Source: Patescibacteria group bacterium (lineage in GTDB: Bacteria > Patescibacteriota > Microgenomatia > UBA1406 > GWC2-37-13). From it: a stretch of 64,000 nucleotides of DNA. Positions 50,061-53,421 of the stretch are shown piece by piece (position 1 is the stretch's first letter; each line of letters starts with the position of its first letter). Position numbers and translations under genes: made by a program. Location: positions 240,064 through 304,063 of the forward strand of contig JANWUX010000002.1 in NCBI GenBank assembly GCA_025057905.1. Reading direction: 5' to 3'. Under the pieces are notes generated by a model. The model was not told the origin of the DNA. It worked only from the letters and a program-made list of their open reading frames with translations, and did no database searches.

Positions 50061-50768
50061 ATGTTAAGTATTTTTCGAGCTTTTCTAATTAGAAAAGAAA
50101 AGTTGAATCCAGACACTCATTATTTCAGATTTCAACTTTCTGATCCAAAAGAAATTAATTTCATTCCGGGGCAGTATCTGATTTTAAGAATTGGCGATAA
50201 AAATCGCCTGTATTCGATTGCTTCCGCTGCTGACAAAAAAAACCTCATTGAGATTCTAGTTAAAATTTATCCCGGTGGCCTAGCTTCTGAATTTTTACTA
50301 AAGCTGACTCCAGGAGTGGAAGTTATCTTTAGCGGTCCATCGGGCGTTTTTCGCCTAAGGGAGAATCATCTAAGAAAAATATTTCTAGCGACTTCAACCG
50401 GAATTGCGCCATTTTTATCGATGATTAGATCCAAAAAACTCAGATTTGAGACAGACTACAATCTATTTTGGGGGCTAAGGCTCAAGACTGATACTTACTT
50501 TGTCAATGAGTTATTAAAAATCAGAGAAAATTCTGGAGGAAAATTTAATTTTCGAATCTGTTTATCACAAGAAACCCAGCCAGTTGACCCAAAAATCTTT
50601 CTTCCAGGAAGAGTCCAAATCGGTTTAGAAAAATTAATAAAACCAAAAGACTTCCCTCTTTTTGAGTTTTATCTCTGTGGCGGTAGTGATTTTGTTGAGG
50701 ATCTAAGAAATTACCTTGAAAAAAAGGGTGTTAACAAAGAACGGATTCTTTTTGAAAGATATATCTAA
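50061..50768 (+). CDS. Ferredoxin-NADP reductase-like FAD/NAD(P) oxidoreductase
   Basis: A 235-residue two-domain flavoprotein. The FAD domain has F-I-P-G-Q-Y-L and R-L-Y-S-I-A-S (about 48-54), the isoalloxazine-binding R-x-Y-S motif. The NAD(P) domain has T-S-T-G-I-A-P-F (about 115-122) and Y-L-C-G-G-S near 208, with a C-terminal aromatic Tyr two residues before the end, as in bacterial ferredoxin/flavodoxin reductases. There is no fused ferredoxin domain. Its electron acceptor is unknown, as no ferredoxin gene is in the window. TATAAT at about 50022-50027 is a possible promoter. Confidence 0.82.
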   Translation: MLSIFRAFLIRKEKLNPDTHYFRFQLSDPKEINFIPGQYLILRIGDKNRLYSIASAADKKNLIEILVKIYPGGLASEFLLKLTPGVEVIFSGPSGVFRLRENHLRKIFLATSTGIAPFLSMIRSKKLRFETDYNLFWGLRLKTDTYFVNELLKIRENSGGKFNFRICLSQETQPVDPKIFLPGRVQIGLEKLIKPKDFPLFEFYLCGGSDFVEDLRNYLEKKGVNKERILFERYI

Positions 50769-50781
50769 ACGATTAAGTTCT

Positions 50782-53421
50782 TTACTTATCTGAAAATTTC
50801 TTTTTGAAACTGACTAAAACAACTGGTGTTTGCTCGTCTGCCTGACCCATAGGATTATCGCCGAAAATTTTCTCAATTTCCTTATCGGTAAAAGTCCTCA
50901 CAGTTTTCGACAAAACTTGCTGACCAAGATCATTGGCGTCGATGATGACAACTCCAAGAAAACTTTGCTGATACTTTCGGGGAAGTTTTTCTAGGAGCCG
51001 CTGGTGAATTCTCGCTGCGACTTTCTCTGGTTTTTTTGGCGCCAGTTTTGCTGAAACATTTGAAGGATAGAGGGAGTATTCTGTGGGGCCATCAATCGCA
51101 GCAATTTCTTTGCCTAGAAGACGATAGAAAACACCCCTAATTCCAAAAATTCTAGCCAAGCCAGCAATGAGAGCGGCAAAAATTACCAATAGCAAGCTTT
51201 TTTCTTTTATTGTTAACTCCATTGTCCAAGGACTTCCCAAGCCAATTCCGTAAGGTGTCTTCTTGACGAAGCGGTAAAGAAGATTTGCCCAAAAACTTGG
51301 TTTTATCTCCCAAACAAAATAAGATCTTCCTTGAGCGATGGCAACCACCTTCTCGGAGATAGCAACGAAGAAGCTCTCTTTTTTGGGACTGATAAGTTTT
51401 CTTACTGCGACAATGACTTTGTTAGTCAGTTTCTTTTCAATACAGTCACCTTTCTTGATCAGTTCAGTTTTTATTGGATACCTGAAATAATCATCATTGT
51501 CGATCTTTAGACATAGATTTTTTCCTGGATTTGGCTGTCCAAGTTGATAAACACAAGTTTGCTGAGGTTCTTTTTTATCAAAAAACTCTCTCAGCCAGAG
51601 TTCAAGATTAATGAGTCGCCAAAAAATCATTGTATCGTCAACTCGGCCTTCAATGAATTTTTTGAATGCTTCAAGGACATTTTTCTGATTGAAGTAAGGG
51701 CGCTGAGTAAATGACTGAGAGAGAAAAATAGAATAAATTTTGTTTTTCATTCTTAAGAACCACTGATACTCCGGCGTGGTGAAGCCAATTTTATTTCTTC
51801 GTTGATTGATCATTGTAGGTAGAATTCCGTTTGTTGCTTGACGAAGAATATATTTATTCCAGCCATCTCTGATAATAGCCTCATCAGGAAGGGAAAACAA
51901 ATAGCGAAGAAGATTGACATCAAGAAACGGTACTCTCCCCTCAATCGAGAATCTCATGCTGTTTTTGTCTTCGTATCTAAGAAGGGCTGGTAAACTGTTA
52001 TAAAAAATATCCTCAATCAATCTTTTCTTCAAACTGTCGCCAGTTGGCTGAAAAATTTCCCGATGGTGCTCTTTGAGAAACTTGGGATTGAGTAACTTGT
52101 CAACATCTATCTCTTCTCTTATTTTCAGAAAGTTAAGCACCTTCTTATTAAGATAGCGAAACAAAACATCTCTAACGCCGACTATTTCTCGAAAAATCTT
52201 GGGAAGATTTGTATTTGTTTTGATTAGTTGCCTTAGATAAACCATGTAATAAGGTAAATATCCAGCCAACATCTCATCGGCACCTTGGCCATCAAGAAGG
52301 ACTTTTACATGTTTAGCAGCCTCTCTCATCACTTGATACTGGGCATAGGGACCAGATGAGATTGTTGGCTCCTCTTGAGTCCGAATAAAATCAGTCACAT
52401 CCCTGAAAAAATCTTCTGGTTTTGGATAGACCTTAGAATTCTTTATCTTTGGCCTAAGGTTTCTGACAACACTGTCGATGTATCTCTCTTCATCATTGAT
52501 TTCTCCTGGAAAAACAGCCGAGAAAGTCTTCTGGATTTTGCCCACTGACCTGGCCTCTTTGTTTTTTTCTTTTAGAAGTTGATTAACGACGGTGACGACC
52601 GTCGAGGAATCAAGCCCACCTGAAAGACATGTCCCAACTGGAACGTCAGCAATCAATCTCAGTTTTATTGCTTGGTATAGTTTTTCTCTAAATAAATTAA
52701 CCTCTTTTTTGGTTAATCTAGAGATTTTGAAAAGAATATTGACCAGTTCTTCTTCAAGAGATGTATATTTCTTTATCTCAATTTTAGAAGGTGTCATTCT
52801 CATCAAGTAACCTGGCATTAAGCGATAGACGTTTTTGAAGAAAGTTTCTTCGTTGTCATCGTGAACTCGAAACTTTAGATATCGATAGATAACTCGGTCA
52901 TTTGGCTCCTTTATTATTAGTCGACTGTTGATTATGGGTTTAATCTCTGAGGCGAAGATTACCTTTGTCGGTTTTTTCTCCAAAATGGTGTAATAAAGAG
53001 GTTTAATTCCAAAATGATCCCGCGCCAGAATTAGTTCATTTGATCGTCGGCTGAAAAGGGCAAGAGCAAACATACCGTTTAATTTGTCAAAACACTTTTC
53101 TTGCCATTCTTCATAACCATGAACGATAATCTCAGTATCACAGTTGGTCATGAAGCGATGACCTCTTTTTTCGAGATCCTTTTTCAATTCCTGATAGTTG
53201 TATATTTCACCGTTGTAAACAACAACCAAGGACTTGTCCTCGTTGTAGATTGGCTGATTGCCTCCTTCGATATCGATGATTGCCAGACGTCGGTTAATGA
53301 GTGTTACTTGTCTGTCTGAATAAACTCCCTCACCGTCTGGTCCCCGGTGAATAAGCCACCGAGAGATTTTTTTTATCAACTGATCATCTTCAAAACCAAA
53401 GAAGCCGGCAATTCCACACAT
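50782..53421 (-). CDS. Asparagine synthetase B fused to an F420-0:glutamyl ligase-like domain
   Basis: An 879-residue fusion. Residues 1-~615 are a full glutamine-dependent asparagine synthetase: C2 nucleophile in M-C-G-I-A-G, R-G-P-D-G-E-G, Y-N-G-E-I-Y-N in the glutaminase domain, and the PP-loop S-G-G-L-D-S-S (267-273) and L-D-G-Q-G-A-D-E in the synthetase domain. After a linker comes a second domain (~645-879) with I-K-T-E-L-I-K-K-G-D, F-F-V-A-I-S-E-K-V-V-A-I-A-Q-G-R, Y-G-I-G-L-G-S-P, D-G-P-T and V-V-I-I-D-A-N-D-L-G, which I read as the CofE-like (F420-0:gamma-glutamyl ligase) family. CofE adds Glu to a phospholactyl cofactor; no other F420 gene is visible. The fusion suggests an amide/peptide ligation on an unknown substrate. 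Confidence 0.8.
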   Translation of the reverse strand: MCGIAGFFGFEDDQLIKKISRWLIHRGPDGEGVYSDRQVTLINRRLAIIDIEGGNQPIYNEDKSLVVVYNGEIYNYQELKKDLEKRGHRFMTNCDTEIIVHGYEEWQEKCFDKLNGMFALALFSRRSNELILARDHFGIKPLYYTILEKKPTKVIFASEIKPIINSRLIIKEPNDRVIYRYLKFRVHDDNEETFFKNVYRLMPGYLMRMTPSKIEIKKYTSLEEELVNILFKISRLTKKEVNLFREKLYQAIKLRLIADVPVGTCLSGGLDSSTVVTVVNQLLKEKNKEARSVGKIQKTFSAVFPGEINDEERYIDSVVRNLRPKIKNSKVYPKPEDFFRDVTDFIRTQEEPTISSGPYAQYQVMREAAKHVKVLLDGQGADEMLAGYLPYYMVYLRQLIKTNTNLPKIFREIVGVRDVLFRYLNKKVLNFLKIREEIDVDKLLNPKFLKEHHREIFQPTGDSLKKRLIEDIFYNSLPALLRYEDKNSMRFSIEGRVPFLDVNLLRYLFSLPDEAIIRDGWNKYILRQATNGILPTMINQRRNKIGFTTPEYQWFLRMKNKIYSIFLSQSFTQRPYFNQKNVLEAFKKFIEGRVDDTMIFWRLINLELWLREFFDKKEPQQTCVYQLGQPNPGKNLCLKIDNDDYFRYPIKTELIKKGDCIEKKLTNKVIVAVRKLISPKKESFFVAISEKVVAIAQGRSYFVWEIKPSFWANLLYRFVKKTPYGIGLGSPWTMELTIKEKSLLLVIFAALIAGLARIFGIRGVFYRLLGKEIAAIDGPTEYSLYPSNVSAKLAPKKPEKVAARIHQRLLEKLPRKYQQSFLGVVIIDANDLGQQVLSKTVRTFTDKEIEKIFGDNPMGQADEQTPVVLVSFKKKFSDK

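Follow-up and report, generated by a model that had tools for sequence, protein, structure and literature searches.

In the CofE reaction, GTP and metal ions serve to activate a carboxylate, which an amino acid then attacks (PMC10861534; PMC8498797). A CofE domain also occurs in a fusion, in FbiB, together with a nitroreductase (PMC8498797), and FolC2 of chlamydiae (CT611) is a CofE-family protein that complements an Escherichia coli folC mutant (PMC1971073). Thus, with FolC2, a CofE relative working outside F420 is already known. Among the relatives of asparagine synthetase, N-acetylglutaminylglutamine amidotransferase is an AsnB-family enzyme that acts alongside a ligase; in this it resembles the locus described here, although its ligase partner is not known to be CofE-like. 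The present locus is an 879-residue frame in a 64,000-nucleotide stretch (the window) of a Patescibacteria group bacterium (assembly GCA_025057905.1, contig JANWUX010000002.1, positions 240,064 to 304,063), in which an AsnB-type asparagine synthetase is followed by a compact CofE-like domain. No paper on such a fusion was found in the open-access literature searched, subscription papers being mostly outside that search. We give about an even chance to the reading that the protein combines an asparagine synthetase with a compact CofE-fold, nucleotide- and metal-dependent amide ligase outside F420, probably joining an amino acid to a carboxylic acid.

The fusion gene and its two halves

A preliminary description, made from the letters of the window, had proposed one frame with a complete glutamine-dependent AsnB and a CofE-like domain, and this is borne out by the frame, by Pfam, by the asparagine synthase model TIGR01536 and by a fold match; the plus-strand reading of 50782-53421 contains 33 stops, the coding frame being on the minus strand. 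The motifs quoted there, C2, SGGLDSS, SEKVVAIAQGR, GIGLGSP (residues 725-731), IDGPTEY and IDAND, are all present among the following features.

50782..53421, minus strand: AsnB/CofE-fold fusion gene, 879 aa, single open frame with start MCGIAGFFG
53416-53418, minus strand: catalytic Cys2, ahead of the GATase_7 domain
52933..53292, minus strand: GATase_7 glutamine amidotransferase domain, residues 44-163 (Pfam)
51589..52692, minus strand: Asn_synthase domain, residues 244-611 (Pfam, E 5e-66)
52603..52623, minus strand: SGGLDSS pyrophosphate loop, residues 267-273 (sequence)
50785..51540, minus strand: compact CofE-fold domain as modelled, residues 628-879 (AlphaFold2; Foldseek and VIA match to 2PHN)
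51325..51357, minus strand: SEKVVAIAQGR motif, residues 689-699 (sequence, conservation)
51220..51249, minus strand: GIGLGSPWTM motif, residues 725-734 (sequence, alignment)
51076..51096, minus strand: IDGPTEY motif, residues 776-782 (sequence, profile alignment)
50929..50943, minus strand: IDAND motif, residues 827-831 (profile alignment)
50824..50859, minus strand: DNPMGQADEQTP motif, residues 855-866, counterpart of MGE..EQTP in full-length CofE relatives

Residues 2-547 pass TIGR01536 (440.9 bits against a cut-off of 267.1) and, with Cys2 and the SGGxDS loop, stand among the asparagine synthases, from which the window protein differs by its extra C-terminal domain; judged by its sequence, this half is likely a glutamine-dependent asparagine synthetase, making asparagine. 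It remains under the cut-off of the E. coli AsnB model PRK09431 (277.7 of 499 bits). Of the pathway imagined in the preliminary description, where an amino acid is ligated to an acceptor and then amidated, the ligase is retained in the favoured reading, placed outside F420, while the sequence of ligation and amidation, in which an acceptor would receive Asp or Glu from the CofE-like half before amidation of that product by the AsnB half, survives only as an unlikely rival. N-acetylglutaminylglutamine amide synthesis is a precedent for it; models of AsnB relatives acting on other acids score well, if under their cut-offs (298 of 570 bits for the N-acetylglutaminylglutamine amidotransferase, TIGR03104), and the nearest solved structure, 7YLZ, belongs to a hydroxyamidotransferase (E 8.5e-47), with E. 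coli AsnB close behind (1CT9, E 8.9e-45), but the wide margin over TIGR01536 argues against it. The fusion is the only full-length PF00733 match in the source genome, the others being three short pieces of one other locus. Outside the window, on contig C3, a short PP-loop (pyrophosphate-loop) relative of Asn_synthase (L134, 1088-1851) is split over two overlapping frames; in relatives it is a single frame of about 250-280 residues.

The C-terminal half matches F420_ligase (PF01996) at residues 650-828 (E 9e-9, 35.6 bits against a cut-off of 25), over profile positions 2-148 of 218 only. The AlphaFold2 model of residues 628-879, with a predicted local distance difference test score (pLDDT) of 92.3, matches Archaeoglobus fulgidus CofE (2PHN) by Foldseek and VIA, with a root-mean-square deviation of 4.1; the structure prediction that the preliminary description had proposed as a check on the domain has thus returned the CofE fold, and the PF01996 score and the modelled fold together place the domain in this family. 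A full-length model (mean pLDDT 82.6, predicted template modelling score 0.69) was not used for the domain arrangement. With CofE (2PHN, 7ULD) the domain shares the modelled fold, the Asp150 motif, Asp828 of IDAND aligning with Asp150 of the A. fulgidus enzyme in the profile alignment, and the end motif MG[EQ]...P. Like the compact branch to which it belongs, it differs by failing the curated CofE model TIGR01916 (16.1 bits against 180.65 for the window domain) and by the absent place of the F420-binding arginine R234; the stretch beyond the Asp motif is shorter as well. The counterpart of IDGPTEY in A. fulgidus CofE is unsure, since Asp777 falls on Asp109 by eye and on Asn112 in the profile alignment; Asp109 and Asp150 are presumably metal ligands of that enzyme. 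GIGLGSPWTM was not seen among the full-length CofE relatives aligned, and the domain sequence alone finds no match in the PDB at E <= 1. Differently from FbiB, the partner in the window protein is AsnB, placed N-terminally, and a Pfam scan of the whole protein finds no nitroreductase domain. Full-length CofE-like proteins are found in other relatives (L002 of genome G011, and L003-L011); between L002 and A. fulgidus CofE the E value is 1e-31, and a 211-residue piece of L002 scores 177.4 of the 180.65 bits of TIGR01916.

Since the F420-holding region of CofE is rebuilt in the compact domain, the acceptor is likely another molecule than F420. When F420 genes were sought in the source genome, as the preliminary description had advised, CofC, CofG and CofH had no match in the assembly, which is 92% complete, and the single CofD match, under the CofD cut-off, is YvcK according to TIGR01826 (306.8 bits against 196). 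With no F420 gene set found and TIGR01916 failed, a role in F420 was rejected as likely, and the role outside F420 that had been expected is supported. Moreover, among 23 genomes with the compact domain a CofH-like match occurs in 11 and exceeds the cut-off in 4, so that 19 have none over it.

Recurrence, probable separation and unequal decay of the fusion

Both Pfam domains lie in one frame in 14 of the 57 genomes searched, the source genome included, and in a fifteenth (G005) they form two pieces at contig ends; the search for the same fusion in relatives, another check put forward beforehand, was therefore positive, and adjacent asnB and cofE-like genes, sought likewise, occur as separate neighbours in G050 and G210. 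A scan of named genomes gave at least 593 matching stretches, at least 536 of them relatives; the best 80 loci (57 fused, 22 standalone, 1 cut) come from Roizmanbacteria, Saccharibacteria, WOR-3, Oscillospiraceae and many Actinomycetota, where fused copies are found in Knoellia, Brachybacterium and Catenulispora, ruling out a family confined to the candidate phyla radiation. A search with residues 630-879, whose length filter excludes standalone domains, returned 887 proteins at E <= 0.001, the best 120 of which all carry Asn_synthase, with the second domain under the Pfam cut-off in some. In a search with the AsnB half, for which proteins of 483-1538 residues were eligible, unfused ones included, 7999 were scored and 2934 reached E <= 1e-100; the best 120 are all 835-965 residues long and all have the QGR motif, the eight chosen motifs being exact in 94 and one or two of them missing in 26. 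An assembly artefact is ruled out by this recurrence across genomes and by the fused state of these 120 relatives. The compact domain reaches E <= 1e-10 in 16 of 239 genomes from an even draw of the phylum, the source genome included; among viral contigs a single scan yielded 17 pattern matches, but no relative. A second fusion partner, adenylate kinase, is found in L141 (4576-5988, genome G131; ADK E 2e-30, F420_ligase E 2e-9), a gene located between secY and map.

The domain tree comprises 74 domains, 36 fused to AsnB and 38 not, L141 among the latter; it was built by a quick method without bootstrap and, like the AsnB tree, midpoint-rooted, with many inner branches open. The fused or unfused state changes three times on it, against about 25 in shuffles, and a branch with a Shimodaira-Hasegawa-like approximate likelihood ratio support (SH-aLRT) of 99 sets the fused rows, together with six standalone ones, apart from the rest. 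The simplest reading that fits this tree is one fusion followed by two separations, the first in Roizmanbacteria/Woesebacteria (L071, L073, L075, L080) and the second in Actinopolymorpha (L105, L128). In the AsnB tree, from which 24 fused rows were dropped beforehand and in which several long branches remain, the closest grouping of the unfused AsnB of Actinopolymorpha rutila (L159) is with the Catenulispora AsnB half (support 94), so that both halves persist in the A. rutila genome as separate genes.

In order to compare the halves, 22 AsnB sites and 24 sites of the CofE-like half, picked from conserved columns and from AsnB catalysis, were scored in 113 database proteins and in 56 fused loci, a count that excludes the cut L084. 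Nine of the 56 (L070, L077, L078, L090, L091, L094, L110, L112, L119) have a change in Cys2 or in the SGGxDS loop, and in these same nine the sites of the CofE-like half are all conserved except for E863Q in two. R45, N70 and E484 are altered in L093, L097, L101, L106 and L108, and in L086 together with D377; L051, L082 and L121 have an end that is cut or miscalled. All 22 AsnB sites are intact in 101 of the 113 database proteins. Asn70, a presumed glutamine-site residue, is Val in L056, L057, L121 and 8 of the 113 database fusions, so these copies may use free ammonia. The conservation of its sites where the AsnB half has lost Cys2 or the pyrophosphate loop suggests that the CofE-like half has a function of its own.

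Pairwise ratios of non-synonymous to synonymous substitution (dN/dS) were simple Nei-Gojobori values, for which Roizmanbacteria are too distant. Intact Knoellia pairs give 0.13-0.17 for the AsnB half and 0.05-0.16 for the CofE-like half; the comparison of Knoellia with Janibacter sp. HTCC2649, in which the AsnB half is decayed, gives 0.43-0.46 and 0.10-0.14, the Terrabacter group 0.16-0.30 and 0.06-0.10, L086/L091/L119 0.43-0.62 and 0.17-0.27, and the strongly decayed L077/L078/L094/L112 0.26-0.62 and 0.15-0.40. Leekyejoonella-Flexivirga is less clear (0.23 and 0.18), and two comparisons run counter to the trend, the intact Catenulispora pairs (0.08-0.15 and 0.16-0.23) and Brachybacterium-Helcobacillus (0.56 and 0.64). 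These estimates agree with a stronger constraint on the CofE-like half in most, not all, groups; in Roizmanbacteria the AsnB half is slightly better kept (across the 113 proteins its mean identity to the window protein is 0.62, that of the CofE-like half 0.57). The activity of the CofE-like half is likely independent, older than the fusion and outliving it. Its strict dependence on AsnB is ruled out by AsnB decay, by the separations and by carriers lacking PF00733, and decay or splitting off of the AsnB half in some lineages also speaks against a pathway in which it would amidate the ligated product.

Gene neighbourhood and asparagine supply

The usual order in Roizmanbacteria, by eye, is LysM, LemA, HtpX, fusion, gatC, gatA, gatB, dnaE and ATP synthase, and a motif scan detects a gat gene in 17 loci, out of 24 among L051-L130 in which at least one of seven landmark genes was recognised. 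In the window dnaE directly follows the fusion, and the source genome has its gat genes on a different contig; of their products, GatB passes its models, GatA is just under (461.5 of 481.1 bits) and GatC was named by eye. Separate genes follow one another as asnB, compact cofE-like, gatC, gatA and gatB in G050, and as asnB, compact cofE-like, gatC and gatA in G210, where the gat genes were recognised by eye.

The source genome has a bacterial-type aspartyl-tRNA synthetase (AspRS) and no asparaginyl-tRNA synthetase (AsnRS) over the cut-off. With AspRS and GatB, free asparagine is not clearly needed for its translation, a point in favour of amidation of a ligated Asp or Glu by the AsnB half; however, AsnRS exceeds the cut-off in 3 of 57 relatives (G020, G024, G032), all with the fusion and with AsnRS in the same gene row, suggesting free asparagine there.

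Two other neighbours were observed. In L090 (2601-4190), and likewise in several Intrasporangiaceae, the gene immediately upstream of the fusion resembles, by eye, guaA (GMP synthase). In the window, 50061-50768 on the plus strand encodes a 235-aa FAD/NAD oxidoreductase (PF00970 and PF00175), closest to the reductase part of BenC and converging on the fusion gene.

Proposed function and significance

The chemistry of CofE, together with FolC2 serving another acceptor, led us to adopt the reading of a nucleotide-dependent amide ligase outside F420. The AsnB half would convert Asp and ATP to beta-aspartyl-AMP, which would yield Asn on attack by ammonia from Gln; the CofE-like half would use a nucleotide, with the aid of metal ions, to phosphorylate the acceptor carboxylate, and an amino group would attack the acyl phosphate, as proposed for CofE. 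The amino acid joined could be asparagine, or the aspartate handled by the AsnB half. The fusion would give co-production and perhaps a local amino-acid supply, the ligase not depending on it; coupling of the ligase to asparagine is likely, though facultative.

Several points weigh against this reading. Against solved CofE, a 12-row profile of the domain scores no better than E 0.15, and Asp109 is not where the profile alignment sets the IDGP Asp; with so weak a sequence match and a deviation of 4.1, a changed chemistry on the CofE fold is possible. Compact cofE-like genes occur without any PF00733 match in G037, G042, G044 and G046, so the domain does not require asparagine of the cell's own making. 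Within Roizmanbacteria gene order is inherited, so the gatCAB neighbourhood does not amount to many independent observations, and as evidence for joint function it is weak. Finally, the patterns used to collect the named-genome loci lie inside the CofE-like half and so hide copies where that half is decayed; the counter-check on this bias, the AsnB-half search, covers the best 120 of 2934.

Two further explanations concern the CofE-like half itself. It may no longer be a ligase, being another nucleotide-dependent enzyme or a sensor, with the fusion reflecting gene adjacency only; a core partly rebuilt relative to CofE, the adenylate kinase partner of L141 and the lack of a constant neighbour of standalone genes outside Microgenomates (by eye, among the matches listed) would suit this possibility, which we hold improbable, while the IDGP, IDAND and MGQ..EQTP motifs are conserved across phyla. 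Less probable still is a folylpolyglutamate-type ligase replacing FolC, as FolC2, the CofE-family protein that complements the folC mutant, does in chlamydiae: two standalone members match TIGR04132, presumably the FolC2 model, at 20.2 and 20.8 bits, far under its cut-off of 350, and for the window domain this model is not listed at E <= 10. No folate gene was noticed, by eye, beside the loci inspected, and the domain is also present in Actinomycetota, which normally have FolC. A role in peptidoglycan bridges was weighed from cell-wall types and set aside.

A search with one standalone compact protein finds 2751 database proteins at E <= 1e-5, some of which may be true CofE; the best 120 are named F420-0 glutamyl or glutamate ligase, except P0205, a 'hypothetical protein', and these F420 names stand although in 19 of the 23 carrier genomes checked CofH is either unmatched or under its cut-off. 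Fusion, splits and lineages with a decayed AsnB amount to a natural experiment on which half is the important one, and a standalone protein of 234 residues makes the question of function directly testable. A bolder version of the ligase reading, which we regard as doubtful, is that compact CofE-fold proteins are an unrecognised ligase family joining asparagine (or aspartate) to an undescribed small acid, the AsnB fusion being a one-chain enzyme for synthesis and ligation; if true, its product would be a new widespread metabolite or a building block of the cell envelope.
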